This document shows, piece by piece, positions 7,450-34,058 of a stretch of DNA of 36,679 bases. This DNA comes from Desulfobacteraceae bacterium (lineage in GTDB: Bacteria; Desulfobacterota; Desulfobacteria; Desulfobacterales; Desulfosalsimonadaceae). Position numbers and translations under genes: made by a program. Within the stretch, counting starts at the first letter, position 1, and every line of letters starts with the position of its first letter. The stretch is from NCBI GenBank assembly GCA_011390415.1, contig JAABSL010000346.1, forward strand, positions 1 through 36,679. Direction: 5' to 3'. The notes under the pieces were generated by a model, which ran no database searches, had not been told where the DNA came from, and saw only the letters and a program-made list of their open reading frames with translations.

Positions 7450-7484
7450 ACTATTTATTTATCTCCGGCAATATATAGATACCA

Positions 7485-15478: not shown

Positions 15479-16228
15479 CTATTCCGGTATTGTGGTATCT
15501 GCGGCCGGCAGTTTCTCACCGGGTGCACCCTGCTCCGGAGGAACGCTGTGATGCGGTTCCTCATAATATTTTTTTAACAAGGCTTTTGAAGTCCCCAGGT
15601 GCGCATTATGGCAGGACAGGCACGGACCGGTGACATGCAGTTCCCGCACGCATTTTGGAATGCCCGGCTTCTCATTCACATTGTGGCAGCTGATGCACAA
15701 CGGGTCCGGCTCCGCAATCAGCCGGAACGGATGCCGGCCCTGATGGGGAACGTGACATTTTACACAGTCTCCATCGGCGGCTGTTTTGTGCAGGTATAAT
15801 CCCTGTTTTTTTGCCCACCCGGGAGTCAGGTCTTTATGGCACCTTACGCAAAGTTCTTTGACCGGAAGGGTCAGCGGCCCCGGTTTCCCGCCGCCTATTC
15901 TGAAAATACCGTCCCAGTCCGAGCCGAAAATCGGGGTGGAAAACGCTTCGGCCCCTTCATGGCATTCCGCGCATTTTCTTTCAATATACGGTTTGTGGGA
16001 AACCAGCAGATAATACTGATCTTCATCAACGTATTTTTTTTCAGGGTTCCGGCTTTCATCGACTGCTTCAGCGCCGGCTTCTGCCTCCGCAGCCGCCTGC
16101 TCTTCCGGAAAAAAAAAGGCCAATACCCCGTTTTCGGGATGCGGTTGACAGCCGGCCAGGGTCAGCACGGTCGTTATCCAGAAAGCAGCCAGGATAAACA
16201 GATGTCGGTTTTGATCCGGAAATTTCAT
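15479..16228 (-). CDS. Pentaheme cytochrome c lipoprotein
   Basis: Lipobox LTLAGC; CAECH, CVRCH, CVKCH, CISCH, CLSCH. Confidence 0.92.
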   Translation of the reverse strand: MKFPDQNRHLFILAAFWITTVLTLAGCQPHPENGVLAFFFPEEQAAAEAEAGAEAVDESRNPEKKYVDEDQYYLLVSHKPYIERKCAECHEGAEAFSTPIFGSDWDGIFRIGGGKPGPLTLPVKELCVRCHKDLTPGWAKKQGLYLHKTAADGDCVKCHVPHQGRHPFRLIAEPDPLCISCHNVNEKPGIPKCVRELHVTGPCLSCHNAHLGTSKALLKKYYEEPHHSVPPEQGAPGEKLPAADTTIPE

Positions 16229-16304: not shown

Positions 16305-17369
16305 CTATTCTTCCGGAAGGGACTCGCCGATCCAGTGTCCGAAGCCGTAAACACTCAATTTCCCCTGGCCATAGGTACTGGTCACATACACAAGATATTC
16401 CAGCTCGAAATTCGGGTCCGCATATTGGGAAAAATAACCGACATTCTGGTAATCGATTGCCACCCCGGCCGGAAGATACAAGCTGCCCGGCGCATTTCCG
16501 GCCCCGCCGAAAAAAAGCAGCAGCCGGCCCTGATCATCAAATATCTGTACATTTTCAAATGCCGCGTCCACTGAATAGAGATTGCCCTTCCGATCCACGG
16601 CCAGCCCTTTGGGCCGGGCAAATCCGCCGACGTTATCCCCGTGAAAACCGATGGTATCAATGAATGCGCCGTCGGGAGTCAACTTTTTGACAGTAAAATT
16701 AAAGGCATCATTAACAAAAACACTGCCAGACGGGCCTACCGCCACGTGGGTCGGATTAAAAAAATCGCCCTTCTCCCCCACGGCCCGGATCACCTCGCCG
16801 GTCGCCTTGTCCAGAATAATCAGCTGATCCTTTTCCATGTCCACCACATATACACGGCTGCCGTAAACCGCGACATCCACCGGCTTTTCAAACACCTCTT
16901 TGCCGCCGTAGACCCTGAAAAACGCATCGTTTGCATCGAATACCACCACCTGCTTTCTCTGCATGTCCGCCACATACTTGAAATCATCTTCAGACACCCA
17001 TATGCCGGACGGATTGCCAAGGCTTCCCACGCCGGTATCTTTTAAAAACGACAGCTCCTTTCGGGCCAGATCAAAAATAACAATTTTTTTGTACATCCGG
17101 TCCATGACGTATATTCTGTCTTTGGCAGCCCCCACATCATAGGGCCTTCCCAAATTCTGATACCGGGGTTTGCCCACCAGAAATTCTTGAAACGCGCTCT
17201 GCCCTTTTCCCAGGTCATGCCCGCCGGATATGGCATGAAGAAACTGCAGCCGCGGCTGCTGGGGCAGCGGGGGATAGAAAACGGTGCCAAAAGACGGCTT
17301 CTTTTCAGCTGTTGACGCGCATCCCAGACAGAACATCACTATGAACAGAATAACTACCGTTTTTTTCAT
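16305..17369 (-). CDS. NHL-repeat beta-propeller lipoprotein
   Basis: Lipobox CLGC; IYVMDRMYKKIVIFDLA, KYVADMQRKQVVVFDAND, VYVVDMEKDQLIILDKATGEVIRAVGEKG, VFVNDAFNFTVKKLTPDG, LYSVDAAFENVQIFDDQGRLLLFFGG; RLQFLHAIS near the N-terminus resembles RIQFLNAVS of the 12273..13349 protein. Confidence 0.9.
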   Translation of the reverse strand: MKKTVVILFIVMFCLGCASTAEKKPSFGTVFYPPLPQQPRLQFLHAISGGHDLGKGQSAFQEFLVGKPRYQNLGRPYDVGAAKDRIYVMDRMYKKIVIFDLARKELSFLKDTGVGSLGNPSGIWVSEDDFKYVADMQRKQVVVFDANDAFFRVYGGKEVFEKPVDVAVYGSRVYVVDMEKDQLIILDKATGEVIRAVGEKGDFFNPTHVAVGPSGSVFVNDAFNFTVKKLTPDGAFIDTIGFHGDNVGGFARPKGLAVDRKGNLYSVDAAFENVQIFDDQGRLLLFFGGAGNAPGSLYLPAGVAIDYQNVGYFSQYADPNFELEYLVYVTSTYGQGKLSVYGFGHWIGESLPEE

Positions 17370-17555: not shown

Positions 17556-18215
17556 TTATTTGTCATGACATGTGAGGCACAACGCTGACGCCGTATTGTC
17601 TTTGAGCAGCAATTTTGTTCCCGGCACGGCTCTTGTATTATGAACATCATGGCAGGAGGAACATTCCATCCGGCTTTGAAACAGCATATCATCATGAATG
17701 GTTCCCGAACTGCGGATCAGGCCCGACAGTTTGGTGGACGGGTCATAGAGTTCACCGTCTTCCGTGGCCAGAGACGTATCATAAACAAAAGAAATCGGGT
17801 GATCATTGCTCAGGTCGGTGCCGATCAGCACATCACCGAAAAGAAAAATGGTGCCGTTTTTGATATCCCCGTAATTTTCCAGCGCCACCGTACCGTCATG
17901 GCACGAAAGACAGATTTTGGAAGGCCCGCCCGGCTGGCTGTCCACGTCCGCATCTAAGGTGGGGGACCGGGCGGTGTCATACATGATATACGTCACGGTG
18001 GACATTTCATGGTTCCACAACGGTGCCGGCAGCGGCTTTGTATTATGGGGGGTATGGCAGGGCTTGCAGATCTCTCCGCTTTCATTCCACAAATACCCGC
18101 GAAAATCATGGGCAGACCCGGCAATGGTTCCTGCCAGGGCAACCGATGAAAAAATAAGCAGCAACACCAACATCACGGCCGGCATTTCTTTTTTTAGGTT
18201 CGACGCACTCACCAT
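17556..18215 (-). CDS. Tetraheme cytochrome c, small secreted
   Basis: CKPCH, CLSCH, CSSCH, CLTCH; ends 2 aa after the last heme (CLTCHDK*). Signal peptide MVSASNLKKEMPAVMLVLLLIFSSVALA; internal ATG at 18215 preferred (AGGTG RBS). Confidence 0.88.
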   Translation of the reverse strand: MVSASNLKKEMPAVMLVLLLIFSSVALAGTIAGSAHDFRGYLWNESGEICKPCHTPHNTKPLPAPLWNHEMSTVTYIMYDTARSPTLDADVDSQPGGPSKICLSCHDGTVALENYGDIKNGTIFLFGDVLIGTDLSNDHPISFVYDTSLATEDGELYDPSTKLSGLIRSSGTIHDDMLFQSRMECSSCHDVHNTRAVPGTKLLLKDNTASALCLTCHDK

Positions 18216-18401
18216 ATTCACCTTTAATACCCAATTTTCATGGTTAAACAAACGGGAAGAACGGGTTCTATTCTCCCCGGCCAGTCTATTTTATAACAGC
18301 GCCCGGGAATGCTATAATTAAATATGTTACCGAAATAATTTAGCAATTCTGTTGTCAGGTGGCAAGGACTATTTCCCGCCCTCACTGTGTGCGTCCCGGT
18401 G

Positions 18402-19409
18402 CTACATCTGATGACACTCCTTGCACAAATTTTCCGGGATGCGATGCCTGTACTTACTGCCCGCCCCTTTGGAGCCGGGACGATCAGCCGGAATCACCCC
18501 GCGCGCATGCGGGTTATGGCAGGTAATGCATGTCATTTTTCCGTTTTCATCCAGAGGCAGCCGGATGTTGTATTTTTCTTCCATGACCTCGATCCGCTGC
18601 AACCCGTCCGGCGACGGCTCAATCCCCATATGATCGGCATTTCCCGAATGATTTCCCGCAATATGATGGCACCGGCGGCACATCATCTCTATATCTCCCA
18701 AAAACTTCACATCCTTAAACGTGGCATGTTTTTCATCCGGTTTTTCAGTATGGCACATCAGGCACGTCTCTATGATGATCTCACCCTCGTCGTTTAACTG
18801 CTGGTGAGGATCGAGCTTTTGGTAATTTTCCCGGGCATGACATTTATAGCAAAATTCCGTCCGGTTCGGATAAGGGGCCCCGCGCAAAGAATTCCTGTTA
18901 AACAGCCGCTTCTGGCATTGCCAATAAATATTATGGCATGTCAGGCAGGTAACCTGCCCGTTTTCCAAAGGGAAATCAGCCGGCATCCGTTCCTTTTTTT
19001 CCGGTGCGGGCGTTACGTCAACCGGATGGATATAGACCCCCGGCGAAAGATCATGACAGCGGCATAACCGATTATAGTCACCACCGAACATCAGATACGG
19101 ATCTTCGCCCTCCACCGGGGTTGTTTCATGGCACTCGTTACAATATTTACCGGTATAATGAATATTGGTGGATGCGGTGACATCCGGATTTTCAAAACTG
19201 AATTCCGGTGCCGGGGGCGTTGCCATATCATCAGCCGCACCGTCGGCCGCACCAGTTGTTGAACCGGACTCCGAATACTCACCATCGCCGTCCGGTTCAA
19301 CGATCTGACATGCAACCAGCACCAGACAGAACACGGCCATGAGGGCTACTGCCAGTTTTACCTTTAATAGCATCTGCCGGGACATCGGATAATGGTTACG
19401 GAATAACAA
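18402..19409 (-). CDS. Multiheme cytochrome c lipoprotein, 7 CXXCH + conserved CRCH
   Basis: Lipobox VLVAC; CNECH, (LCRCH), CLTCH, CYKCH, CLMCH, CRRCH, CITCH, CKECH. Start uncertain (TTG at 19409 or ATG at 19385). Paralog of 33165..34058. Confidence 0.9.
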   Translation of the reverse strand: MLFRNHYPMSRQMLLKVKLAVALMAVFCLVLVACQIVEPDGDGEYSESGSTTGAADGAADDMATPPAPEFSFENPDVTASTNIHYTGKYCNECHETTPVEGEDPYLMFGGDYNRLCRCHDLSPGVYIHPVDVTPAPEKKERMPADFPLENGQVTCLTCHNIYWQCQKRLFNRNSLRGAPYPNRTEFCYKCHARENYQKLDPHQQLNDEGEIIIETCLMCHTEKPDEKHATFKDVKFLGDIEMMCRRCHHIAGNHSGNADHMGIEPSPDGLQRIEVMEEKYNIRLPLDENGKMTCITCHNPHARGVIPADRPGSKGAGSKYRHRIPENLCKECHQM

Positions 19410-21921
19410 ATCGGTTTCTCCCTATCCCCTGTTTCGGTTCTTTTCGTTTATCAGCCTTGTGAAAATATTTGAACATAAACAGTCCTTCCGGTCCATGGCA
19501 CCGGCTGCACACCCGTTCAGGCAGGTGGGGTCTTAAAAAACTGGAGGCAACATTACCTTCACGATTGGCTTCATCGCCTTGTCTTACGTCGTCGCTGCGC
19601 CATTGATGGGCATTGTGGCATGACGGGCATGAGATCCTGCCGGCCATGACCAGGCGCGCATTTTCCGGATCAAAAATCGGAAATACCGGTTCCGCCATGG
19701 AACCCTTTTGAAAATTGGCCACAAACAAAGTTTCCGGATGCGATGAAATCTCCGGCACTTTGGCGGCGGCGGCCCCTTTTTCAGAATGGCAGGTATTGCA
19801 CATCCGGTCCATTACATGATCGCCATTGCCCAGTTGCCGGGCCCACAGCCGAATCCCCTCGGCGTTATGATGGACCAGGTGACAGGAGCCGCATACACCG
19901 GATTCAAACGGTGTCCGGCCGGCGATATTTCTTGCGCCCGGAGCGGTCCGGAGCAGGTTGTGGTCCGACTGCCGGACATCGGTTTTATCGGGATGGCAGC
20001 GGAGGCAGATATCCGATTCCGGGGCCGTGTCGAGGCGCAGAAACCGTTCCAACGGACGGCCTTCAACTGCCACCGGTTCACCGTTTTTCGATAGAACGAG
20101 GGTCCGGCGATGGGGATCATGGCAGGTATAGCAGGTCATGACGCCGCTGTCTGCCACCTCCCCGGCCGCATTGAAAAGGGGCAGTCCTTTCAAACGGGTC
20201 CGCATCCCTTCGGATAAGGAAACATTGACCGGATGAGAATTTTCCGGAATAATTTTGTGGGCCGCCAGTCCGCCCTCTTGATGACATGCGGCACACATAT
20301 CGTAAATTTTCGTGCCGGTTTCCGTTGTTATATTGCGGCCCCAGATAAATCCTTCCGGTTCACTGTTATGGAGGAAGTGACAATTCCGGCACAAGCCCGG
20401 TTCGGCAATCTTTTGTGTCATGATTTCGTGGCCGTCGGGGAATTCGCTTTCAAGGTCATGGCCGGAACCCCGGATGCCAAATTTGTCATCATGGCAGGCG
20501 CGGCAGAGTCCGGGGGACGGCTTTCTTAATAATGTATTTTTGGGGGCTGCCGTGCCGGTTTCAGCAAGGGGCGTTTCTTGGATCGCCGGGCCGCCGTGGG
20601 TATCATGACAGGTAGCACAGGTCATTTCGCCGTATTTATCCGCCACCCCGAATTTATTGAACAGCGGCAGATCCAGCCGCCCGTTTTCCAGGACAATGGT
20701 CCGGTAAGGATCGGCATCTGCGTCACCGATCATTTCAGCCAGCGTCATTCCCACCGGATGGCTGTAGCCGGCCAGTTTTTCGTTTTCAGCCACCGTTCCC
20801 CGGGCATGACAACTCATGCAAAGGGCCGTGGTCCGGTCCGCCTCTTCATACTTTTCCGGCAGACGGCGGGCCGGATTGTGAGGCAAATGGCAGGCCGAAC
20901 AGACGCCGGATTCGGACACGGTTTTTCCTTGCAGGTTCTTTTCGTCTTTGGCTGAAATGCCGAGATTGTGCCGGGTTTTTTCCAGCCGCTGTTTGTCCGT
21001 GTGGCAGGTCATACAAAACTTCGATTTTTCATTTTTCTCGACCAGCAGCGCCGGTTGATTGATCTTGTTATTATGGACCTTGTGGCAAGTCTGACAGGTG
21101 ATCACGTCATCATAGCCCAGTTTGGCGCCTTTTTCCTGCAGCGTCTCCGGCACCACGGCTTTCTGAGGGCGCACATTGATCACATGATTGGCGTTTCGCA
21201 TACCGGACGGATCAAAAATATTCTTATCCCGGTGACACGTTATGCAGAGTCCGCTGTCACCGGCGCCCATGACCAGATACCCTTCCCGGGGGGCGCCATG
21301 GGCCGTATGGCAGGTTTCGCATATCATCTGATTTTTTTTGCTTCCTTCATGGGCGCCGCGCATCTTCAGCGTCTTTGGAATGATTTGTTTGCTTTCACCC
21401 AAGCTATGATTGCCCGCATCCGGGCCGCCGGATTTGTCCGGATGGCACATGCGGCACATGGCCGAATCCCGGTTGGACACCCGCATAAAAATGGTTTCAT
21501 CGATGCCGGGCCCGCTCGGCACACCGTGGGCCGTGTGACAGGTGGCGCACTGTACCCTGCCGTTTTCATCAAGGGGGAAGGCTGCCGGGATTTTCATATC
21601 GGCCGGCGGCTTCACATTGGTTTGATGCTCATTGCCGTGGCGCGTCCGTTTTCGGGAATCCATGACACTGCCGTCGTGACAGGAAAAGCACATTTCCGCA
21701 TCAGCCGCCACTTTCTCGGATTGATAGGGAACCAGGTCCGTTCCCCTGCCGTCAACAAAAAAAGTGTCAATCCAGCGATAATGACATATGGCGCATGCCT
21801 TGGCCGAATTCGGATTTTTGGGAACATCTGCGGGGGCGGCCGCAAACCCGGCTGCGGGCATCTGGAAAACAATCATCAAACAAATGGTGATGATGCTGCG
21901 GCAAATTCTTTTCTGCATCAT
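19396..21921 (-). CDS. Large multiheme cytochrome c, 20 CXXCH, paired-CXXCH repeats
   Basis: Signal peptide; 20 CXXCH counted by hand from CAICH to CSRCH; repeated tetraheme units; 4-bp overlap with upstream NHL gene. Confidence 0.93.
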   Translation of the reverse strand: MMQKRICRSIITICLMIVFQMPAAGFAAAPADVPKNPNSAKACAICHYRWIDTFFVDGRGTDLVPYQSEKVAADAEMCFSCHDGSVMDSRKRTRHGNEHQTNVKPPADMKIPAAFPLDENGRVQCATCHTAHGVPSGPGIDETIFMRVSNRDSAMCRMCHPDKSGGPDAGNHSLGESKQIIPKTLKMRGAHEGSKKNQMICETCHTAHGAPREGYLVMGAGDSGLCITCHRDKNIFDPSGMRNANHVINVRPQKAVVPETLQEKGAKLGYDDVITCQTCHKVHNNKINQPALLVEKNEKSKFCMTCHTDKQRLEKTRHNLGISAKDEKNLQGKTVSESGVCSACHLPHNPARRLPEKYEEADRTTALCMSCHARGTVAENEKLAGYSHPVGMTLAEMIGDADADPYRTIVLENGRLDLPLFNKFGVADKYGEMTCATCHDTHGGPAIQETPLAETGTAAPKNTLLRKPSPGLCRACHDDKFGIRGSGHDLESEFPDGHEIMTQKIAEPGLCRNCHFLHNSEPEGFIWGRNITTETGTKIYDMCAACHQEGGLAAHKIIPENSHPVNVSLSEGMRTRLKGLPLFNAAGEVADSGVMTCYTCHDPHRRTLVLSKNGEPVAVEGRPLERFLRLDTAPESDICLRCHPDKTDVRQSDHNLLRTAPGARNIAGRTPFESGVCGSCHLVHHNAEGIRLWARQLGNGDHVMDRMCNTCHSEKGAAAAKVPEISSHPETLFVANFQKGSMAEPVFPIFDPENARLVMAGRISCPSCHNAHQWRSDDVRQGDEANREGNVASSFLRPHLPERVCSRCHGPEGLFMFKYFHKADKRKEPKQGIGRNRFVIP

Positions 21922-22859
21922 GGGCCCTCTGGTGTAATGCGGTAGACACTGACCTTCTGGTCCAGCATTTCAACCACGTACAGGCGGTTGTCCCGGTCAA
22001 TATAAAGGCCGACGGGTGTCTTAAATTTTTGAACTGTTTTCTGCCGGCCATCTCCCAGCACCCCGTAAAATCCCCCCCAGGTGCCGAATACCTGGATCAC
22101 GCCCATGTAACTGTCGCTCACATAAATTCGGTTGTTCGCATCTACGGCAACCCCTTTGGGCCGGAAAAACTGTCCTTTTTCCACACCCCAGCCGCCGACA
22201 TAGGTGACGAACAAGCCTTCGGGACTGATGACCTGGACCCGGGTATTGATGACATCGACAACATAGAGATAATTCTCCTTGTTCAGTGCGGCTAAAAACG
22301 GATACCGGAACTTCAGCTCCTGGTCTCCCGCCCCCCCGATGGTATTAATCAACTGCCGGGTTGACAGATCATAAACAAGAAGCCGATGGTTGTCGTTATC
22401 CACCGCATACAGACGGTTGCGCGACTCATCCACCGCCACATCCGTGGGATCCGCGGGTTTATCGCCTTTGGCCGGCAGGTCAATGGATGCGGTAAAATTT
22501 GTATCCCGGTCAAATATCTGAACCCGGCTGTTGCCGGCATCGGCTATGTAAATATTGCCCGCATTGTCCACATCAATGCCGAGGGGAAACTGAAACCGGC
22601 CATTGCCGCTGCCTTCTTTTCCAAAGGCCGAAAGTGCTTTGCCATCTTTGTCAAACACTTTTATCCGGTTGTTCACACCGTCGACCACATAAATTTTGCC
22701 GTCTTTTGAAACCGCCACATCACTGGGCTCGCTGAAGTCTGCTGAAATTTCAAATAAAAGATCGATATTCACAATATTGACGCCCAAAGCAGGACCTGCC
22801 GACAGAACCGCAAAAGCCACAATCATATGGAAAAGAATAATCCGGCGGATGTGCATCAA
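21918..22859 (-). CDS. NHL-repeat beta-propeller protein, secreted
   Basis: Signal peptide; IYVVDGVNNRIKVFDKDGKALSAFGKEGSGNGRFQFPLGIDVDNAGNIYIADAGNSRVQIFDRD...; paralog of 29241..30185. Confidence 0.92.
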   Translation of the reverse strand: MMHIRRIILFHMIVAFAVLSAGPALGVNIVNIDLLFEISADFSEPSDVAVSKDGKIYVVDGVNNRIKVFDKDGKALSAFGKEGSGNGRFQFPLGIDVDNAGNIYIADAGNSRVQIFDRDTNFTASIDLPAKGDKPADPTDVAVDESRNRLYAVDNDNHRLLVYDLSTRQLINTIGGAGDQELKFRYPFLAALNKENYLYVVDVINTRVQVISPEGLFVTYVGGWGVEKGQFFRPKGVAVDANNRIYVSDSYMGVIQVFGTWGGFYGVLGDGRQKTVQKFKTPVGLYIDRDNRLYVVEMLDQKVSVYRITPEGP

Positions 22860-22938
22860 AGCCCCCGTTTAAGTGTGCGCACGGTTTTGGTTATTTTCGG
22901 GTTATCTGGTTTTTTTATCATATTTTCTGGTTTTATAT

Positions 22939-23886
22939 TTACCGGAACATGTCCGGGAAGTAAAAGATCTTGTATTTGGTCACCAGCCCCTTGATATTGA
23001 TATTGATCAGGTCATGTGCTTTTCTGGACGAAAAACCGAGATCTTCGAAATCAAGGATAGTGTCCGTTGAATGGCATTCATGGCAGGTCACACTGACGGC
23101 ATTTTTATGGATGTCTTTGTGAAAATACGCCAGCCGTTCTTTTTTCTCGGCAGATGTCCACTGGTCTGCTTTTGCAAGGTATGCTTCTGCTTTTTCCGTA
23201 TCCCAGGTATTGTGCAATGATTTTTTTTCACCGTTTTCTTCGGAAAAAACCGAAATTCTCGATATAAAATGACCGGTTTCCGATTCACCGCCGAGCTTGG
23301 GGTTAAACCGGGCACCAAACGGTTTGCCCGCAAAATCGGCGGTTTCCGAACCCGTCCATTCATAGTCGATATTTGTATATTCCTCCCGGTTGATATGGCA
23401 TGTCTCGCAGGTCATAAAACCGACATGCATGTTAATGAACGCTCTTGCCAGTTCATTGCTTTTGTGCGGATACAGCCGATGACATACCCGGCAGGCAGAC
23501 CCGTCCGCCAGACGGGTAATATAAAACTGCTCATTGTCATGCATTGTCTTTAAATTAAAGTCTGCGATCAGCTTTTTGTCTTTTTCGGCCAGATGGCATC
23601 CGTTCGTGCAATTAACGGCTGTTTCGCCCACATGCGGCACCTTGTTAACCGTGGTATGACATTTCCGGCAATCGGTTTTACCGTGGGGAGATTGCAGGTA
23701 ACGCTCCTCATCAATATGAAACACCCGGAACCCTTCCGGCGTTTCCGGCCGGGTCAGTCCCGGATACTGATGGCAGGTAAAACAGCCGCTCTCGTCCATG
23801 GCAAACCCGTTGTCCCGGGCAGATGCCAGTATCAGCACCAGCATCGATACACAAACCACTAATCGGCAGGGAATTTTTGGTATCAT
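22939..23886 (-). CDS. Hexaheme cytochrome c (chimeric architecture)
   Basis: CFTCH, CRKCH, CTNGCH (CX3CH), CRVCH, CETCH, CHECH; N-half resembles 25576.. and 32005.., C-half resembles 23939.. and 30189... Start at internal ATG 23886. Confidence 0.9.
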   Translation of the reverse strand: MIPKIPCRLVVCVSMLVLILASARDNGFAMDESGCFTCHQYPGLTRPETPEGFRVFHIDEERYLQSPHGKTDCRKCHTTVNKVPHVGETAVNCTNGCHLAEKDKKLIADFNLKTMHDNEQFYITRLADGSACRVCHRLYPHKSNELARAFINMHVGFMTCETCHINREEYTNIDYEWTGSETADFAGKPFGARFNPKLGGESETGHFISRISVFSEENGEKKSLHNTWDTEKAEAYLAKADQWTSAEKKERLAYFHKDIHKNAVSVTCHECHSTDTILDFEDLGFSSRKAHDLININIKGLVTKYKIFYFPDMFR

Positions 23887-23938
23887 TGGTTTAATCCTCT
23901 TCCTATTCGAATCCGGAGCCCGGATTTTCAGCCGTCTT

Positions 23939-24802
23939 TTATTCTGTCTGCGGCGCTTCCCGAAAATCAATCACGGACGGCAGATGAATTGTCTTGTCCT
24001 TGTTGATCATGCCCACAAATTCATTGGAGATCAGGTGATCGACCCGCTGCCTGGAAAATCCGAGCTGTATGAAATCAAGATACCCGTCCTTTTTATGGCA
24101 GTCATTGCAGGATACGGGCTCTTTTGAAATCCCTTCGTGAAGCTTGGCTCTGGCTGCGTCGAATTGTTCTGTATTCAGTTCGGGGCTGATTTCCAGAAAA
24201 CGCCGGGCAGCGGATTCTGAAATCGGTGTCAGAATTTGCCGGATTCCCTGTTCGTTGACTTTTACGGGAAATATGGTTGCCGGATACTTGCCGTATTCTC
24301 CCTCAACGGCTTTTTTAAATTCCCCGGTCGCCCAAACCCGCCATAAAAATGCCGATATCTCATTTCCAAGGCGGGGTCCGTCGGGGATGTTTTCACCCCC
24401 CTTGCGCACATGGCATACGGAACAGGATATAAAGCCTTCATGCATGTTTAATAAGGCGCGTACCTTCTTTTCCTTGTCATGAGCATACCTCCCGTGACAC
24501 ATCACGCAGATCGGCGGCGGTTTTGCCGATTTTTCAACATAGGCGTCAATCATATGAAAATGGTCCCGGGGCACGGCTTCTTTTTTCGGAATAACCACCG
24601 GCAATACTTGCGGCTCCGGGCGGTATCGTAAAAGTGAAATCGACGCATTTAAATCAAATCCCGGGAAATAGACAAGACCCAGCAGCCACAGGCCAAATAC
24701 AAAAAAGGGTAAAAGATAGATCACTTTTATCAAAAACAGGCCGCTTTTTTTGATCATGCGAAAGGCCCGGGTAAAAATCGAAGCCTTCTTTTCTTTATTC
24801 AT
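23939..24802 (-). CDS. Membrane-anchored triheme cytochrome c
   Basis: N-terminal TM SGLFLIKVIYLLPFFVFGLWLLGLVYF; CVMCH, CSVCH, CNDCH. Confidence 0.9.
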   Translation of the reverse strand: MNKEKKASIFTRAFRMIKKSGLFLIKVIYLLPFFVFGLWLLGLVYFPGFDLNASISLLRYRPEPQVLPVVIPKKEAVPRDHFHMIDAYVEKSAKPPPICVMCHGRYAHDKEKKVRALLNMHEGFISCSVCHVRKGGENIPDGPRLGNEISAFLWRVWATGEFKKAVEGEYGKYPATIFPVKVNEQGIRQILTPISESAARRFLEISPELNTEQFDAARAKLHEGISKEPVSCNDCHKKDGYLDFIQLGFSRQRVDHLISNEFVGMINKDKTIHLPSVIDFREAPQTE

Positions 24803-25568
24803 CCTGTTTCGGTCCCTTCGTCAGGTAGATTTTCCGGAGTTTCGGATCACTCATGATCCTTTTGTAATGCAGGGGATACTCTTCCTTCATTTCGGCTTCA
24901 TCTATGATGCCGGTGAGCCACATGTTATCCCCGGGAAACTTGTGCGGCCGCAGGTGAACTTCATACATATGCCAGACCATCACCGCCAGGCAGGCCAGAA
25001 CCGCTTCCATCCCGTGAATCAGTGCGGCAATATCAATGATGAATTTATCCCAGAAAGACTCGGCCCACAAAATCAGACCCGAAGCCGACATCAGCCCGGT
25101 ACCGACAATCAGGGCCAGATACTCCATTTTGTGTTTATAGGAGAACCGGTCAAACTCCGGCGGGTGTTCTTTCACCTCGATATAATAGAGCATATTATGA
25201 ATAAATTCTTTGATATCTTTCGGCCGCGGCATCATGTCAAAAAGCCAGCGCCGGCCGGCCCGTTTAAAAATCAGATAATAGAAATGGTAGGCACTCACTA
25301 TAATCATAGCGGTCCCGGCCATACGATGCAGCACGCCGCGCACGGTAAACACGGTTTCTTTCGCCCCGCCGAGAAAATCAAGGGTTGTTTCGGGAATCCA
25401 GACCATAAAGCCCGTGGCGGCCAGAACAATAAAGCTGACGACAAAGATCATATGCTGGACTCTTTCATTAAAATTGAGCCGGACAAAATACAGGGGGGTA
25501 TCGCCCTGCTCTTTCTCCTTGCTCATTTTCCCTTGTTCCATGGTTATTTCATTGTGTGACATATGCAA
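24795..25568 (-). CDS. Cytochrome b, FdnI/Cbc-like membrane subunit
   Basis: VQHMIFVVSFIVLAATGFMVWIPE, VLHRMAGTAMIIVSAYHFYYLIFK, MEYLALIVGTGLMSASGLILW, ALIHGMEAVLACLAVMVWHMYEVHLRPHKFPGD; His residues placed in TM helices. Confidence 0.9.
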   Translation of the reverse strand: MHMSHNEITMEQGKMSKEKEQGDTPLYFVRLNFNERVQHMIFVVSFIVLAATGFMVWIPETTLDFLGGAKETVFTVRGVLHRMAGTAMIIVSAYHFYYLIFKRAGRRWLFDMMPRPKDIKEFIHNMLYYIEVKEHPPEFDRFSYKHKMEYLALIVGTGLMSASGLILWAESFWDKFIIDIAALIHGMEAVLACLAVMVWHMYEVHLRPHKFPGDNMWLTGIIDEAEMKEEYPLHYKRIMSDPKLRKIYLTKGPKQDE

Positions 25569-25575
25569 CCTCTTG

Positions 25576-26736
25576 TTAATGATGGGTCCCTTCGGTTTTC
25601 ATTTTCTTTCGGATCCGCCGGAAATCCAGCAACTGGTGCAAAACCATAAATCCGATCACGGAGCCGATAAGGACCTGATACACCAGCCGGATCAGGGAGA
25701 GGATTTTGTAATGGAATATCTCTTCATCCGAAACTTCTTCGCGGGCCCGGATCAGCATGACGGAATCTTCGGCTTCGGCTTCAGCGATGACGGCTTCCCG
25801 GGCCGTCAAAAGCTGCACTTTTGATCCATAGGCATGCACCCGCCCTTCGGCAAAATCGGCGGTGGCCCCGGGATGACATTCCTGAACCCCGCCCTGGTTG
25901 CTGCATGTTTTCACCCGGTTGCGTTTATTGGTCGGTGACACGGGATCGGTTCTGGGCTGGATTTCATGGGTGGTATATCCCACGGGCACATGACAGGAGA
26001 TACAGTCGGGGGCATTTTCCACGCCGTATTTGACCATTGTCCAGTGAAATGTGTCCTTAAAGGTCGATACCGCTTCAAGGCCGTGGCGCGTCATTTTTTC
26101 TTCATTTTCATGACAGCTCGTACACAGCCGGATAATTTCATCCTGTTCCCGTTGCCGCCGCATGCGATGGGTGAAATGGGCATATATCTCTTCGGTCCAG
26201 GCCTTCTCCGTATGACACGCCTGGCACCGGGCCAGGGTTTCAAGGGCCAGGGCCGCACTTTTGCCCCAAGCCCCCTCATAGGGATTGTAGGACCGATTCT
26301 CATGACAGTAAGTGCAGGTGGGCAGGTCTTCGGGAAATTTTTTCTTTTCATCTGCGGCTTGTCCGTGCACGCTGTTGTCATACTTTTTTACCATGTTTTT
26401 ATGCGAAAAATCCAGATTGGAAGAGGGTTCTTTTATGTGGCACTGTGTGGCGCAATCCACTTTTTTCACTTCATCATGGGGTATCTTGTCCAGATCCGTA
26501 TGACAGCCTTTGCACCGGGCTTCCCCGTGAACGGAATTTCCGAATAAAACGTCATTAATGTAATAGATCCGTCTGGTTCCGTCTTCATCATATCGTCCCA
26601 GGTTGGGATATCGATGACAAATCAGGCAATTTTCTTCATCCGGCGCTGCTTCTGACTGGGCAAAACCGGCCCCGGCCCCTGAACAGACCGCAATAAACGC
26701 AACAACAGCCAATTTAAAATAAAGGGATAATTTCAT
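25576..26736 (-). CDS. Octaheme-type cytochrome c with C-terminal TM (7 canonical/CX3CH + CX8CH)
   Basis: CLICH, CKGCH, CATQCH, CTYCH, CQACH, CTSCH, CISCH, then CSNQGGVQECH; C-terminal TM YKILSLIRLVYQVLIGSVIGFMVLHQLL. Start at internal ATG. Confidence 0.9.
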   Translation of the reverse strand: MKLSLYFKLAVVAFIAVCSGAGAGFAQSEAAPDEENCLICHRYPNLGRYDEDGTRRIYYINDVLFGNSVHGEARCKGCHTDLDKIPHDEVKKVDCATQCHIKEPSSNLDFSHKNMVKKYDNSVHGQAADEKKKFPEDLPTCTYCHENRSYNPYEGAWGKSAALALETLARCQACHTEKAWTEEIYAHFTHRMRRQREQDEIIRLCTSCHENEEKMTRHGLEAVSTFKDTFHWTMVKYGVENAPDCISCHVPVGYTTHEIQPRTDPVSPTNKRNRVKTCSNQGGVQECHPGATADFAEGRVHAYGSKVQLLTAREAVIAEAEAEDSVMLIRAREEVSDEEIFHYKILSLIRLVYQVLIGSVIGFMVLHQLLDFRRIRKKMKTEGTHH

Positions 26737-26835
26737 TTTTATCGATTTTGTCCTGGTTCGTTGTATTATATCCACTGAACTACCTTATGCCGAATGCCGG
26801 TTACGCTTTCCGGACAATGTTGCATGACCGTCTCA

Positions 26836-29244
26836 TTAGCGAGGCCTGAGCCCTTTGAGCATCTCTCGTTTTTCAAGTGAATGATAGTAAGTATATCGCC
26901 AGATCGCCCTTTGACCATGACAGTCAATACACACTGCCTGGTCGCTCGATGTCCGCAGAAAACTCGTGTCGGCATTGCCCTCTATATTTTCACCCGGTCC
27001 CTGTTCCGCCAGGCGATGATTCCACTGGTTGAAGGAATGACAGGATGAGCACGACAGGTCACCGGAATTGACCTCCTGCCAGTCCGCGTCAAACAGCTTG
27101 ATGTAGCCGAAGAACGGGGTGTCCGCCCACATGATATTACTGATCAGCTGACCCGGCGGATGCATAGCTACCGGCGGTATTTTATCGCCGGCAATCCCCT
27201 CTTTGGAATGACACCCGGTGCACAGGCCGTTCATCGAATGCTGGTCTTCGGCCACCGGTCCATAGGGCCCGACCCAGAGCAGCCGTTTTTCCGGACTGTT
27301 GTGAACCGCATGGCAGACCCCGCATTGGCCGGATTCCGTAACATTCCGGTTCTGCTGATTTTTAGCAGACGGTGCGGTAACAAAAAGATCGTGATCCGTC
27401 CCTGTGAGCAAGGCCGTGTCTTCGTGACAGACCACGCATAGGTCCGGAGCAGGAGAAGCTACTTTTCTTAAAAAACTGTTTCGCGCGTCCCCTTCGATGT
27501 TTTTGCGTTCTCCCGAGGCGCTGATCACCTCATCACCGACCGTCCAGATATGGGGATTATGGCAGGTCCGGCACAGAATCCGGTCGCCATTTTCAGTACT
27601 GCCTTTTTCATTGTACAGCGGCAGCATCGAAGCCACCCGATCGGCGGGCGGGATCTGCGGGCCCCGGGAAACCACATTGACCGGATGATCATTTTCGCCG
27701 ACCGGTTTTTCTTTTGCCATCTTGTTTTCCCCATGGCATCCAATGCAGTATTGCAGGGCCGAAACATCAGCCGGATCATTACTGTCCGGTGCCGGATCTC
27801 GTGCCCACAGCTTTTTGTCTGCTGCATTATGCGCAATGTGGCAGGCCCCGCAGGGTCCTGAAACCGCGGCAGTCCGTCCCTGGATGTTTTCAGCTTCCGG
27901 CGCGGTGACGGCCAGATTATGATCATAGGATAACAGCTGGCGTTTGTCCCGGTGACATTCCAGGCAAAGCATGGATGCCAGGCCGGCGGATATTCTCAAA
28001 AAACTGGTGGACGCGTCGCCGATTGCGTCCTTCCCGCCCTTATTTTCAGGGGAAACCGGATCCCATTGATGCATGTTATGGCAGGTAAAACATTGAACCG
28101 TTTTCGCGGTACCTTCAGTCTGCCGCGCTCCGTTTTTGGCGTACAGCGGCAGTTTATCCGTAATTGCCGTTGGCGCAAGTTCCAATACCGACTTTGACAC
28201 AATGTCCACATCATTGGGATGAGAATATTGACCAATACCTTTTATCTCAGCCTTATTCTCCTTGCCGGGGTCCGCTGCCGTATTCTCTTTGTGGCAGGAA
28301 AGGCAGATTCCGGAAGCCGGGTTGCCCGGGGGCATTTTCCGCGCCCACAGCTTATAGCCGGCGGCATTGTGGGGGACATGGCAGGCCCCGCAGGGACCGG
28401 ATTCCGACATGCGCTCTCCCTTTATATTGATTTCTTCGGGCATTGTCAGCCGCAGATCATGCAGGGTCCCGGTAACGGACCGCTGCTCATGGCAGACCAT
28501 GCAAAGCGCTGACCCGCGGTTATCCATTACCGTTAAATTGCGTCCTTTCGCCCCATGAACCGCATGACAGGTCTGGCATATGACCGAATCCTTTTTTTCA
28601 GCCGGTATGCTGCCGGTTTCAAACAGGGTGTCCGGTATCCTGAGTTTGTCCGTGTGCACCGGATGGCCGTTGGTTCGCTTGTAGTCAGCGGCGTTCACAT
28701 GGCATGCTTCACACATGGCGGAGTCCGTGTTCGACACACGGAGAAAGGAATTCGGACCGGCAACGGATGCGTCAGGATCACCTTCAGGTGCGGCAGCCTC
28801 TTCACTATGGGGGGTATGACACGTCCCGCAGTAAATTTCGTCTGTATTGCTTAATGTAAAGGGTTCGGGGATTTTTGCATTCTCCGGCAGCTTTTTAAAC
28901 GTGGTGTGATTGTTGCCCTTCCATGCAATGTGGCGCGAATCCAGGACATATCCGTCATGGCAGCTGTAGCAGATCTCTTCGGCACTGACGATTCCCTGGG
29001 TATCTTTCATCAAAACATTTCCCGGTTCCCAATCAATCAGGGTTTCCTGCTCTGTTCTGAATACGTTCAGCCACATGACATGACACATGGCGCACTCTTT
29101 TTTGGATGATTTTTCAAGGGCCGCCCATGCGGCCGGGCATTCCAACAATACCACCCAAAAGAGTACAATGACCATATAAAATGTCAGGTTGATGGTGAAT
29201 ATCCGGTAGAGAGATATTCGGCGGCGGTAAGCAAAAAATTTCAT
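26836..29244 (-). CDS. Large multiheme cytochrome c, 18 CXXCH, paired-CXXCH repeats
   Basis: 18 CXXCH counted from CAMCH to CIDCH; three ~4-heme internal repeats; 4-bp overlap with upstream NHL gene; paralog of 19396..21921. Confidence 0.93.
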   Translation of the reverse strand: MKFFAYRRRISLYRIFTINLTFYMVIVLFWVVLLECPAAWAALEKSSKKECAMCHVMWLNVFRTEQETLIDWEPGNVLMKDTQGIVSAEEICYSCHDGYVLDSRHIAWKGNNHTTFKKLPENAKIPEPFTLSNTDEIYCGTCHTPHSEEAAAPEGDPDASVAGPNSFLRVSNTDSAMCEACHVNAADYKRTNGHPVHTDKLRIPDTLFETGSIPAEKKDSVICQTCHAVHGAKGRNLTVMDNRGSALCMVCHEQRSVTGTLHDLRLTMPEEINIKGERMSESGPCGACHVPHNAAGYKLWARKMPPGNPASGICLSCHKENTAADPGKENKAEIKGIGQYSHPNDVDIVSKSVLELAPTAITDKLPLYAKNGARQTEGTAKTVQCFTCHNMHQWDPVSPENKGGKDAIGDASTSFLRISAGLASMLCLECHRDKRQLLSYDHNLAVTAPEAENIQGRTAAVSGPCGACHIAHNAADKKLWARDPAPDSNDPADVSALQYCIGCHGENKMAKEKPVGENDHPVNVVSRGPQIPPADRVASMLPLYNEKGSTENGDRILCRTCHNPHIWTVGDEVISASGERKNIEGDARNSFLRKVASPAPDLCVVCHEDTALLTGTDHDLFVTAPSAKNQQNRNVTESGQCGVCHAVHNSPEKRLLWVGPYGPVAEDQHSMNGLCTGCHSKEGIAGDKIPPVAMHPPGQLISNIMWADTPFFGYIKLFDADWQEVNSGDLSCSSCHSFNQWNHRLAEQGPGENIEGNADTSFLRTSSDQAVCIDCHGQRAIWRYTYYHSLEKREMLKGLRPR

Positions 29245-30185
29245 TCCGATACTTCCACTATCCGTATCCGGTTGGCGCGCATTTCCACGACATGCATCCG
29301 GTTTTGGGCATCAAAAACCATCCCCACGGGCGTATCAAACTCCCGTTTTGCTCCGTTTTCGCAGACCACTCCGATAAAACCGCCCAGATTCGTAAATGCC
29401 TGAACGCATCCCATGAAACTGTCTGATATAAATACCCGTCCGGTGTTGTCCACGGCAACCCCCTTGGGCTTGAACAGGCCCCCCGGTGTCACCCCCCAGG
29501 TGCCGATTTCAGCGATAAAATTGCCGAACGGATCAAACTTCTGAATCCGTGTATTTAATACGTCCACTACAAAAATCTGATTGAATTCATTGACCGCCAG
29601 AATGCCGGGGTAACGGAACCGGCCCCGCACTTCACCAAAGCCGCCGAATTCAAATTCAAAGGTGCCGTCCTGCTGGTGGACTTTTATTTTATGATTGTCA
29701 TTGTCCGCCACATACAGATAATTTTTCAGCTCAATTGCCAGTACGTCCACCGGATCAGCCGGTTTTTCGCCGTCAGACGTCTTCACCGGAAACAGGTACT
29801 GGAATGTGCCGCCGGCATCAAAAACCTGTATCCGGTGATTGCCGGTATCTGCGATAAAAACCCGCCCGTCCTTTGCAATGTCGATGCCCAGCGGATATTG
29901 AAACTCGCCCGGACCGCTTCCGCCTTTGCCGAACGAAAATTGAAGCGCACCCTCGCCGCTGGTCACCACCACCCGGTTATTTACGCCATCCACCAGATAA
30001 ATATTGCCTTTTGCGCCGATGGCCAGATCGCTTGGCTGGTCGACACCCGGCGGGGTGATTGACCGCACCACATCACTGCTCACACATTCCATTGAAAACA
30101 CATTTTTTGCCGGCAGGAACAGGAACAAAAAGCCAGCGATCCATGCAAAAATAATTTTTTTCCGGGTACGTCCCATGTCTGCCAT
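29241..30185 (-). CDS. NHL-repeat beta-propeller protein, secreted
   Basis: Signal peptide; IYLVDGVNNRVVVTSGEGALQFSFGKGGSGPGEFQYPLGIDIAKDGRVFIADTGNHRIQVFDAGG...; paralog of 21918..22859. Confidence 0.92.
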   Translation of the reverse strand: MADMGRTRKKIIFAWIAGFLFLFLPAKNVFSMECVSSDVVRSITPPGVDQPSDLAIGAKGNIYLVDGVNNRVVVTSGEGALQFSFGKGGSGPGEFQYPLGIDIAKDGRVFIADTGNHRIQVFDAGGTFQYLFPVKTSDGEKPADPVDVLAIELKNYLYVADNDNHKIKVHQQDGTFEFEFGGFGEVRGRFRYPGILAVNEFNQIFVVDVLNTRIQKFDPFGNFIAEIGTWGVTPGGLFKPKGVAVDNTGRVFISDSFMGCVQAFTNLGGFIGVVCENGAKREFDTPVGMVFDAQNRMHVVEMRANRIRIVEVSE

Positions 30186-30188
30186 TAT

Positions 30189-31076
30189 CTACTGCTCCTG
30201 TCCGTCGGGTTCAGGTGGTGGCATTGCTTCGGGCAATTGGCTCCCGTCTGAGGATTTGAATAAATCCGGAAGATAAAACTCATCGTATTTGGTGATCATT
30301 CCCTTGATGCTTAAATTCTGAAGATCCACAATTCTTTTTTCGGAAAATCCCAGCTTCTTAAAATCAAGAATGCCGTCTGTGGCATGACAGGTATGGCATT
30401 CCGGACCCTTGGGAAGAATATCTTCGTGAAATTTTTTGACCATTCCTTCCCGCTGCTCGGGGGTGAGCTGATCCCGGACCCGCATATAATCCTTTGCCAT
30501 GTCCGTCTTCTCCATGTGCAGGGTGGGCACCAGTTTTCCGTCTTTTTTATAAAAAGGGACAATTTGAGATAAATGATCATCCGTGCGTTTGAGTTCCCCG
30601 GATTCGGGATCATAGGACGTGCCGAAAAAGGGACCTTGCGGATTCTCCTCCACCGGAGAATACCACTGATACACCACCACCTCTTCTTCTTTTATTTCCA
30701 GGTGGCATGTTTCACAGGCAAAAAAATTCGTGTGCATGTTCAGCATGGCCCGGATCTTCTTTTCTTTACCATGGGGCAGGGTTGAATGACAGATAAAGCA
30801 GGTCGGCCGGAGGGCTTCCGGGGCCTGGGGATAATCGACTATACGGTGAAAATGGCGGTGCTCCTCGGCGAGTCGGTGCTGCTCGAATTCCTGCAAAATA
30901 TCCGACTCTTTTTCCTGAAATTTTTCAACCAGCGGCAGCAAAAGCCCGGGACCGTGGTGGGAAAAGGCCAGATGGTTGACCACCCCGGCCAGCACAAAGA
31001 GTGTCATGAGCAGCACAAAAAGCCCAATCAAATAGATCACCCACGGATGATTCAGTCTTTTCGGGTCTCTTCTCAT
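30189..31076 (-). CDS. Membrane-anchored triheme cytochrome c
   Basis: TM HPWVIYLIGLFVLLMTLFVLAGVV; CFICH, CETCH, CHTCH. Start moved to MRRDPKRL (31076), giving a 4-bp overlap with the cyt b stop. Confidence 0.9.
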   Translation of the reverse strand: MRRDPKRLNHPWVIYLIGLFVLLMTLFVLAGVVNHLAFSHHGPGLLLPLVEKFQEKESDILQEFEQHRLAEEHRHFHRIVDYPQAPEALRPTCFICHSTLPHGKEKKIRAMLNMHTNFFACETCHLEIKEEEVVVYQWYSPVEENPQGPFFGTSYDPESGELKRTDDHLSQIVPFYKKDGKLVPTLHMEKTDMAKDYMRVRDQLTPEQREGMVKKFHEDILPKGPECHTCHATDGILDFKKLGFSEKRIVDLQNLSIKGMITKYDEFYLPDLFKSSDGSQLPEAMPPPEPDGQEQ

Positions 31077-31972
31077 CCGGATTCCCCTTCTTTTTCCGCA
31101 TACCCCATTTCCGCCAGCACAGAGCGCATATATTCCCGCTCTTCCGGAATTTCCGCCAGGTTGCGCACATATTCCAGAAAATGTTCTTCCAGCTGATGTT
31201 CCCGGGTAATTTTTCCCGTAAAAACTGTCCATTGGGCGGGAAACCGGCCCGGTACCAGGTGCACATTGGACAGATGCCAGAGGGCAACAACAATCAGGGC
31301 CATAATGGCTTCATCCGCATGCATGATCCTGGCCAGGTCCTGGACAAATGACGGGTTAAACGGCCACAGCAATGCGACATACTCCGGATAGAGCAGCGCC
31401 AGGCCGGCAAATATCAGAACAAAGGAACCCCACAAAATGGCAAGGTAGTGAAGCTTCTGCTTGTACATGAATTTTTCCATTTTCGGGCGAAAAGGCGCAC
31501 GACCCAGAAAATATTTAATATCATGGATTAAATCAAAAAGATCCTTGGGCAGCGGCACCTGGGTTCTCCGGATATCAAATTCTTTTTTTACGATCTTTTT
31601 TATGGTGCCGCCGGCAATGGTTAAAATGTGATATACGGAGGCGCCGATCATGATATAAGCGGCAATCCGGTGGATCACCTGGGCCATATCAATGCCCCCG
31701 AAAATCCAGATCACATGGGGCGCCCAGAACGCGTCATTGTAGTGCAGGGGAATGCCGGTGGCAGAAAGCGCAATAAACGTCGTAAAAATCAGAATGTGCT
31801 GAAAAACGATATGCGCCGAGTATCGGGGCAGATCCCCGAGCGGGTTGGATTTGACGTACTTGTATATGTCCCGGGGAATGGAGCCCACCCCTGCCACATG
31901 GGTAAAATAGTCGTCCGGCATTGGCTTAACGGATTGCCCGGACCCGGCGATCTTTTCAATGGCGGCCGTCAT
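31073..31972 (-). CDS. Cytochrome b, FdnI/Cbc-like membrane subunit
   Basis: IVFQHILIFTTFIALSATGIPLHYNDAFW, VIHRIAAYIMIGASVYHILTIAGG, LHYLAILWGSFVLIFAGLALLY, IMHADEAIMALIVVALWHLSNVHLVPGRFP; paralog of 24795..25568. Confidence 0.9.
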   Translation of the reverse strand: MTAAIEKIAGSGQSVKPMPDDYFTHVAGVGSIPRDIYKYVKSNPLGDLPRYSAHIVFQHILIFTTFIALSATGIPLHYNDAFWAPHVIWIFGGIDMAQVIHRIAAYIMIGASVYHILTIAGGTIKKIVKKEFDIRRTQVPLPKDLFDLIHDIKYFLGRAPFRPKMEKFMYKQKLHYLAILWGSFVLIFAGLALLYPEYVALLWPFNPSFVQDLARIMHADEAIMALIVVALWHLSNVHLVPGRFPAQWTVFTGKITREHQLEEHFLEYVRNLAEIPEEREYMRSVLAEMGYAEKEGESG

Positions 31973-32004
31973 CGAAACTCCTTTTGATCACATGTTTAAT
32001 CATT

Positions 32005-33078
32005 TTATTTTCCCTTGTCCTGAATCCGCCAGCTGCTCCCCGCCTTTAATGTCATGTGAATGCCGTCTTTTTTTCTGCGGTAGGTTTCCAGAAACAAAAG
32101 CCCCATAAGACCGAATACGGTGCCGTAGAGGATGGCTTTGAGCACCAGATTGCTCATGACAAAAAGGACCGGATGATGCGGCACTTTAATGCGGGGATGA
32201 ACCGCGATTTTAACAAAATGCTGGTTGATCTTTGCGTGGCAGTTTTTGCAGATGGCCTGCAGATTATCTTCGTGAATTGAAGATTTCGGATTGTCTTTTT
32301 CATAAATATCATGAATCAGGCTCGAGGCATGACAACTGATGCAGTCCGCGGCTTTCTCCGACCCGAGGGCGGTCATCTTGCCGTGGATCGATTCTTTATA
32401 GGTCGCAACCACTTCCAGATCCCGGCCGGTAGCACCCAGTTTTTCCATGAGCGGGACATTCCCGTGACAATTTCTGGCGCACAGCGACACAATTTCCTGT
32501 GAAGATCGCGATGTCTTGTGGCGCAGCCGATGGGTCATGTGCAGATAGGCCTCTGTCACGCCTTTTTTCTTATGGCAGTTCAGACAACGGTCCAGTGTTT
32601 TTTCATAATCAATATTTTTTTCATCCGCTATTTTGTACAGGGGGTTCAGATGGCAATACTTGCAGTCGGGTTTGGATTCTTTCATTAACGGCGAGTCATC
32701 CGCCTTTACTGCATGATCGCTGGAATTAAAGACTTCGATGATTTTCCGGTGGGAAAAATTCTTTTCCGCAAACGGCGGCTTGATGTGACACTCATTGGCG
32801 CAATTGACGGTTTCCGTTACCGGCTCATGGGGGAACTTCTTGATATAGGTATGACATCCCCGGCATTCAACATCTCCGTGCAGGCTGTTTAAAAAGAGGT
32901 GTTCATCAACATGATAGTTTCGTCTCAGGCCGTCTTCAGCGATTCTGCCCATAAACGGATATTTATGACACATGAGGCAGTTCTCCGGGTCCGCAGCCTG
33001 TGCCTTTGAAAAACCGGACAGCCACAATGACGGTATCAAAAGCACTATCACTGCGATCAGAAGATATTTTCGTTTCAC
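32005..33078 (-). CDS. Octaheme cytochrome c with C-terminal TM
   Basis: CLMCH, CRGCH, CANECH, CKYCH, CLNCH, CARNCH, CISCH, CKNCH; signal peptide VKRKYLLIAVIVLLIPSLWLSGFSKAQA after a GTG start with AGAGGAG RBS; C-terminal TM LVLKAILYGTVFGLMGLLFLE. Confidence 0.88.
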   Translation of the reverse strand: MKRKYLLIAVIVLLIPSLWLSGFSKAQAADPENCLMCHKYPFMGRIAEDGLRRNYHVDEHLFLNSLHGDVECRGCHTYIKKFPHEPVTETVNCANECHIKPPFAEKNFSHRKIIEVFNSSDHAVKADDSPLMKESKPDCKYCHLNPLYKIADEKNIDYEKTLDRCLNCHKKKGVTEAYLHMTHRLRHKTSRSSQEIVSLCARNCHGNVPLMEKLGATGRDLEVVATYKESIHGKMTALGSEKAADCISCHASSLIHDIYEKDNPKSSIHEDNLQAICKNCHAKINQHFVKIAVHPRIKVPHHPVLFVMSNLVLKAILYGTVFGLMGLLFLETYRRKKDGIHMTLKAGSSWRIQDKGK

Positions 33079-33164
33079 CGTATCGGCTCCTCTGTTTTTT
33101 GAGCACATACCTCTAACCATTTCACAAAAATAACCCGAAAATAAATTGATGGCTAAGAACGCCA

Positions 33165-34058
33165 TCACATCTGATGGCATTCCTTGCACATCTTCTCCGG
33201 CAGCCGGTGCCGGTTTTTGCTGTCCGCCCCTTTTGCCGACGGTTTATCCGCCGGAATCACCCCTTTTTCATGGGGATTATGGCAGGTGATGCAGGTCATT
33301 TTGCCGTCTTCCGTCAGCGGAAGGATGATATTGAATTTTTCTTTCATCCGTTCCATTCGCATCAGCCCCTCATCTGTCGGTTTTTCCGCCATATGGTCGT
33401 AATCGCCCGCGTGATTGCCCGCAATCTGGTGACATCTCCGGCACAGGGCCTTTATATCTCCTATAAAGGTGACTTCTTCATAGGTGGCGGTCTTTTCATC
33501 CGGTTTTTGTTCATGGCAATAAAGGCACATTTTTATGCTCAGCGTTCCATCCGGCTGCGTCTGATGATGGGCATTCAATTTTTTATATTTTTCTGCGTCA
33601 TGGCATCTGTAGCAAAAATCGGATTTAAGGGGGTACGGCGCACCCCGCAATGACTGTTTGTCAAACAACCGCTTCTGGCACTGCTTATAAACATCGTGGC
33701 AGGTATTGCAGGTAAATTTTCCGTCTTCTATGGGAAAATCCGAAGGCGTATCGGCTTTACGGTCGCCTCCGGTGGTTATCTCCAGAAGGTGACAGTAACC
33801 GGGCGACATGCCGTGATGGCACCGGCACAAGCGGTTATAATCGCCGTTGAATTTCAAGTAAGGATCACCGCCTTCTGTCGGTCTTTGTTCATGACATTCC
33901 CCGCAAAACCGGCCGGTATAGTGTATATTGGTGTTTTCATCGATAATGACGGGCCAGGAGGCCGGCGTTTTTTCTGTTGGTTCTTTCTGATCCGGCGCCA
34001 GACGGCAGCCTGAAAAAAACACAAAAAAGATGAGAACCATTATCGATATATTTTTCAT
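33165..34058 (-). CDS. Multiheme cytochrome c lipoprotein, 7 CXXCH + conserved CRCH
   Basis: Lipobox FSGC; CGECH, (LCRCH), CNTCH, CYRCH, CLYCH, CRRCH, CITCH, CKECH; paralog of 18402..19409. Confidence 0.92.
   Translation of the reverse strand: MKNISIMVLIFFVFFSGCRLAPDQKEPTEKTPASWPVIIDENTNIHYTGRFCGECHEQRPTEGGDPYLKFNGDYNRLCRCHHGMSPGYCHLLEITTGGDRKADTPSDFPIEDGKFTCNTCHDVYKQCQKRLFDKQSLRGAPYPLKSDFCYRCHDAEKYKKLNAHHQTQPDGTLSIKMCLYCHEQKPDEKTATYEEVTFIGDIKALCRRCHQIAGNHAGDYDHMAEKPTDEGLMRMERMKEKFNIILPLTEDGKMTCITCHNPHEKGVIPADKPSAKGADSKNRHRLPEKMCKECHQM

Follow-up and report, generated by a model that had tools for sequence, protein, structure and literature searches.

The stretch of DNA analysed here (hereafter the window, 36,679 nucleotides) carries two adjacent multiheme cytochrome modules, which we consider likely to represent two members of an ancient set of three classes (A, B and C), conserved together, of a quinone-linked complex consisting of an octaheme c-type cytochrome (tm8), a cytochrome b (cytb) and a triheme c-type cytochrome (tm3). 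The complex would feed an extracellular conduit, its classes would be specialised, and class C would have been lost. A preliminary description of the same DNA had presented the modules as a diverged tandem duplication of an entire block. All the genes it named are there, closely packed on the minus strand: from 34058 to 18402 they run in a single direction, with no gap exceeding 79 bp and many overlaps. The features are as follows.

33165-34058, minus strand: lip8, A-side 7+1-heme lipoprotein, lipobox near residue 15
32005-33189, minus strand: tm8 class A, octaheme c with signal/N-terminal TM, eight hemes (6 CxxCH and 2 CxxxCH; last motif CX2CH) and C-terminal TM
31073-31972, minus strand: cytochrome b class A, FdnI-like
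30189-31076, minus strand: tm3 class A, triheme c, N-terminal TM (the conserved protein begins at about 31076; the ORF from 31232 overlaps cytochrome b)
29241-30185, minus strand: NHL beta-propeller, A type
26836-29244, minus strand: 18-heme c-type cytochrome, A type
26776-26835, no strand: 60-bp A/B junction, the site of triad C (tm8-cytb-tm3) in the UBA5616 sister locus
25576-26775, minus strand: tm8 class B, octaheme-type c (6 CxxCH, 1 CxxxCH and a last motif CX8CH)
24795-25568, minus strand: cytochrome b class B, FdnI-like
23939-24802, minus strand: tm3 class B, triheme c
22939-23970, minus strand: hex6, hexaheme chimera of the tm8 N-terminal and tm3 C-terminal triheme domains, lacking the cytochrome b (5 CxxCH and 1 CxxxCH)
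21918-22859, minus strand: NHL beta-propeller, B type
19396-21921, minus strand: 20-heme c-type cytochrome, B type
18402-19409, minus strand: lip8, B-side 7+1-heme lipoprotein
17556-18251, minus strand: tetraheme c, first gene of the outer-membrane conduit module
16305-17369, minus strand: NHL protein, conduit module
15479-16228, minus strand: pentaheme lipoprotein, conduit module
13406-15394, minus strand: candidate outer-membrane beta-barrel, conduit module (proposed from sequence character and context; no NCBIfam match)
12273-13451, minus strand: second NHL protein, conduit module
10577-12286, minus strand: 12-heme c-type cytochrome (11 CxxCH and 1 CxxxCH), conduit module

As had been noted before, gene order and domain plan agree between A and B member by member while the sequences are diverged, with pairwise identities within the window of approximately 28-42% (tm8 38-39.5%, cytb 30-33%, tm3 28-31%, NHL 42%, and 29-36% for the 18- versus the 20-heme cytochrome). 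These A/B pairs are nevertheless related far beyond chance, with BLASTP E-values from 3e-29 to 1e-123, and the two lip8 paralogues, correctly placed at opposite ends of the array, are 56-60% identical. The preliminary description had proposed gene trees of each paralogue pair as a check, and held that independent donors with convergent gene order would overturn its view. In the trees of five genes (tm8, cytb, tm3, NHL and the large cytochrome) A and B separate cleanly, and independent donors are not seen. Classes A, B and C each form one clade in the trees of tm3 (support 94-99) and tm8 (95-100), with the hexaheme as a further clade in both, and in that of cytochrome b (99-100), while NHL and the large cytochrome show the A/B split at 99-100. 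When phylum-wide members are added to the cytochrome b tree, each class reaches at least 100/98, and the union of A, B and C is separated from other FdnI-like cytochromes at 99/94. The branching order among the classes varies, cytochrome b joining A with C at 93/69 and tm3 pairing B with C.

By these comparisons A and B are related copies, ancient members of a three-class family common to two phyla. What stands of the block duplication is therefore the common ancestry of A and B and the homology of their order, in adjacent collinear blocks with the same class split in every gene; what falls is its local character. A simple block tandem duplication in the window's lineage followed by fast divergence would explain the collinear order and the member-by-member homology, but we regard it as very improbable. 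The two blocks are not each other's closest relatives: each gene is approximately 40-79% identical to orthologues in other genomes, as against approximately 30-42% to its own neighbouring paralogue, so the A/B pair is not a duplication made here. Moreover, the class clades span Desulfobacterota, and those of A and C also Nitrospirota; the trees thus rule out a recent local duplication. Even less credible is a convergent gene order assembled from independent donors. While the patchy spread of the cluster (3 of the 36 genomes of the window's family are positive) and the frequent location of A and B at separate loci in other genomes could be taken to favour it, every member is homologous to its counterpart and several families have fusions that follow this gene order, and together the homology and the fusions rule it out. 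The lip8 pair has a different history: both window copies fall inside a clade restricted to Desulfobacterales, so their duplication is younger than the A/B/C split. In the class A trees the window pairs with UBA5616, a genome of another family, before it joins G018 of its own family, a grouping that fits a transfer of the cluster between families and could also reflect differential loss.

The picture of two modules, although accurate for A and B, was incomplete, as a third class exists that is absent from the window. Searching a collection of 84,980 genomes with a tm3 profile yielded 60 loci, mainly from Nitrospirota (Thermodesulfovibrionia) and Desulfobacterota. Thermodesulfovibrionia (33 of 230 genomes positive) typically carry A and C in tandem together with the hexaheme, and typically without B, whereas related Desulfobacterales typically carry A, C and B plus the hexaheme. 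The order to which the window belongs has 24 positives among 389 genomes; of the 23 with usable context, A, C, B and the hexaheme are all found in 10, only C is missing in 5, and the hexaheme is present in every genome with class B (20/20). A sample across the phylum Desulfobacterota gave 22 positives in 345 genomes, some with more divergent forms.

The sister locus is that of UBA5616, a Desulfobacteraceae MAG whose contig reads lip8-A-C-B-hexaheme-NHL-20heme-lip8-4heme-...-12heme and is collinear with the window except for triad C, which lies between A and B (locus L028, 14246-17074), where in the window just 60 bp separate the two. No class C gene was found in the window's own genome (a 91% complete assembly), and none was seen in a fragmented, 76% complete genome of the same genus. 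The simplest reading is that C has been lost from between A and B in the window's lineage, and its absence exactly where the sister locus carries it suggests that the two-module appearance is a remnant. The modules themselves are also mosaic: in 11 Nitrospirota loci, module A is directly followed by a second module in which a class C triad is combined with a B-type NHL (52-61%) and a B-type large cytochrome (45-57%), so that the NHL and 20-heme pair of "module B" goes with triad C in that phylum. The "module" is a divisible unit: at least six genomes, in some cases on short contigs, have no large cytochrome and NHL protein beside triad A.

Several variations on the large cytochromes were observed along the way. 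In G018, a second NHL and 18-heme pair occurs without a second triad (L019, 892-4223), its large cytochrome being 48% identical to the A type. Some Nitrospirota and Desulfobacterota have a 25-26-heme cytochrome paired with a 16-heme one in the vicinity of the triads (L046 389-3689, L050 8283-11629, L158 2433-5690), and a cytochrome of 1639 residues with 38 CxxCH motifs takes the position of the 18/20-heme protein in L158 (11777-16696).

The "extra hexaheme" of module B is present as described, and far from being an unrelated insert it proves on alignment to be a chimera in which the first three hemes of tm8 are joined directly to the three of tm3, the cytochrome b being absent: residues 36-139 align with the N-terminus of tm8 (39%), residues 159-343 with the C-terminus of tm3 (36%). 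The tm3 half groups with class A (support 99, with long branches flagged), and the tm8 half takes no firm position. Because the two halves lack an agreed placement, the idea that the hexaheme is a collapsed class-A-like triad is only a suggestion. Its AlphaFold model is poor (pLDDT 52.7) and we draw nothing from it, and searches of the PDB with the hexaheme and the 20-heme cytochrome returned marginal matches only.

The three subunits of these triads can also be found joined in nature. In divergent relatives, tm8, cytb and tm3 occur as one chain in class A (L159, 9089-11758) and in class C (L169, 13178-15943), and partial fusions of tm8 with cytb (L164, L171, L172) or of cytb with tm3 (L141, L144, L155-L158, L161, L165, L166) are also present; in the window the genes are separate. 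When the alignment is led by a one-chain form, each separate gene maps to its own segment. Together, these natural fusions and the segment alignment offer strong, though indirect, evidence that the octaheme c, the cytochrome b and the triheme c form one complex, and we infer the same for the window's organism.

The cytochrome b answers to the b561/FdnI-type diheme cytochromes in sequence, fold and heme histidines. It matches FdnI, the gamma subunit of formate dehydrogenase N (1kqf_C), at E 3e-10 by sequence, and PF01292 recognises class B above its cut-off (48.6 bits) and class A just under it (27.9 against 30.1). The AlphaFold model of a fused homologue, of moderate quality (pLDDT 73, pTM 0.61), aligns with 1kqf_C at Z 14.5 over 202 residues and 2.9 A (TM 0.71 to target), in a comparison that is dominated by cytochrome b and barely probes the other parts. 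While the fold, the membrane topology and the four heme histidines, conserved in every class, are shared with FdnI, the partners are not: the triad cytochrome b stands beside multiheme c-type cytochromes instead of a dehydrogenase. Pfam searches of tm8, tm3 and the hexaheme at E 0.01 gave no match to the NapC/NirT domain of the CymA and NapC/NirT quinol dehydrogenases.

Downstream, the gene set of tetraheme cytochrome, NHL, pentaheme lipoprotein, candidate barrel, NHL and 12-heme cytochrome fits a conduit of the porin-cytochrome type. By gene set alone it resembles the OetABI-like conduits of syntrophic sulfate reducers, in which a periplasmic cytochrome, a beta-barrel and a surface lipoprotein cytochrome are clustered (PMC10553843), but the window's cluster adds two NHL proteins and a 12-heme cytochrome. 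The 12-heme gene and the triads co-occur in both phyla: in the order, 9 of 389 genomes have the gene, and each of the 9 is one of the 24 triad carriers (p 2.6e-12; the other 15 carriers lack it), and in Thermodesulfovibrionia 14 of its 15 close homologues lie in triad genomes (p 1.4e-12), p-values that overstate independence because of part shared ancestry.

The probable role of the modules is to transfer electrons between the quinones of the membrane and the cell exterior. In the scheme that we propose, the FdnI-like diheme cytochrome b would exchange electrons with menaquinone, and electrons would cross between its hemes and those that tm8 and tm3 hold in the periplasm. They could then pass via the soluble hexaheme, the NHL-associated 18/20-heme cytochromes and the octaheme lipoproteins, with the adjacent outer-membrane conduit as the presumed final stage. 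Classes A, B and C would thus act as parallel inner-membrane complexes into one extracellular conduit.

Why a genome should keep several such complexes may be indicated by features conserved within classes across many genomes, namely class-specific residues, a cytochrome b N-terminal extension and the spacing of heme motifs. The last motif of tm8, beside the membrane anchor, is diagnostic of the class: it is CX2CH in 35/35 core members of class A, CX4CH in 25/25 of class C and CX8CH in 15/16 of class B. Phylum-wide, B forms of tm8 are mostly CX8CH with one CX4CH, and divergent fused A forms carry CX4CH. A retention of redundant paralogues for dosage would be in line with their common domain plan and common operon, but we hold it to be improbable, as it leaves these class-bound features unaccounted for, and as genomes usually hold one copy per class and seldom several of one class. 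Specialisation of the classes for different redox windows is the most likely explanation, on the model of Geobacter, in which ImcH, CbcL and CbcBA each work in a potential range of their own (PMC9129911, PMC12133095).

In the window (25576-26775) and its group, the putative CX8CH heme motif of class B reads CSNQGG[VI]QxCH, and it is conserved in relatives at L028, L142, L055, L155, L156, L160, L161 and L174. Searches for the common CX2-5CH patterns would miss it, and we found no description of it, or of this triad, in the open-licence literature.

A related possibility concerns direction, with one class oxidising menaquinol (export) and another reducing menaquinone (import), in a Q-loop or a switchable respiration. 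The host genome carries dsrA and its owner is thus a probable sulfate reducer, the classes differ in the membrane-proximal heme motif, a reversed operation of CbcBA has been proposed for syntrophic Seep-SRB2 (PMC10553843), and CbcL/MtoC families are known from reducers as well as oxidisers (PMC6295460), all of which would accommodate such a division. No sequence feature predicts direction, however, and the cited survey found none either (PMC6295460), so that we consider opposite directions unlikely, though worth keeping in mind.

Specialised classes of one complex also invite comparison with the Cbc-type systems. CbcL, MtoC and MtrH act as quinol oxidases or as quinone reductases and have a role in extracellular electron transfer (PMC6295460, PMC9129911), and by description they share with the triad a periplasmic multiheme c coupled to a membrane diheme b cytochrome. 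In the window, however, these are not united in one polypeptide, as they are in fused relatives only; the complex is encoded by three genes (8c + b + 3c) with a second, anchored triheme subunit, and the triads form three co-conserved classes linked to NHL and 18-24-heme cytochromes. CbcBA of Geobacter sulfurreducens, which serves low-potential respiration and was transferred into Seep-SRB2 (PMC10553843, PMC12133095), likewise has a cytochrome b gene beside a multiheme c gene, by description, but differs from the 8c + b + 3c make-up, and in the cytochrome b tree a neighbouring 6c-b-7c type, seen in relatives (L020, L021), does not belong to the A/B/C clade. In D. alkaliphilus, a CbcL homologue has been named as the quinone link (Nature 2025, PMC12545173). 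We regard the triad as a new variant of Cbc-type systems, set apart from CbcL and CbcBA by their descriptions.

The triads bear on how sulfate reducers and their relatives, outside Geobacter-type systems, link the quinone pool to extracellular electron transfer. While Geobacter covers three potential windows with three different complexes (ImcH, CbcL and CbcBA), here a single complex in three paralogous versions may cover them, in a set common to Desulfobacterales and Thermodesulfovibrionia, in which case redox tuning would become testable inside one protein family. More tentatively, the triads could constitute an undescribed family of three-subunit quinone:multiheme-cytochrome oxidoreductases, held as a matched set of two to three classes in most carriers, tuned by CX2CH/CX4CH/CX8CH spacing and used by sulfur-cycling Desulfobacterota and Nitrospirota either at differing potentials or for extracellular electron flow in opposite directions.

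The triheme domain of tm3 and the hexaheme (22939-24802, 30189-31076) bears a distant resemblance to octaheme tetrathionate reductase (OTR, 1sp3). One could therefore imagine the complex as a periplasmic terminal reductase acting, for example, on tetrathionate or on some other compound of sulfur or nitrogen, given that tm3 and the hexaheme have TIGR04315 matches with E-values from 1e-5 to 3e-7 and that 1sp3 was aligned at Z 6.5 over 120 residues. Yet the TIGR04315 scores of 24-30 bits are far below the cut-off of 375, tm3 offers three hemes and a membrane anchor where eight hemes are expected, and the triads co-occur with an outer-membrane conduit gene, all of which makes a terminal reductase quite improbable.

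Outside the cytochrome array, the translations of the region downstream of it (5561-9487) include cysteine synthase-, serine acetyltransferase-, NifS- and NifU-like genes. At the right end of the contig, positions 36380-36679 are a dispersed repeat, with 27 matches listed in its own genome, itself included, and this repeat is the likely cause of the assembly break there.
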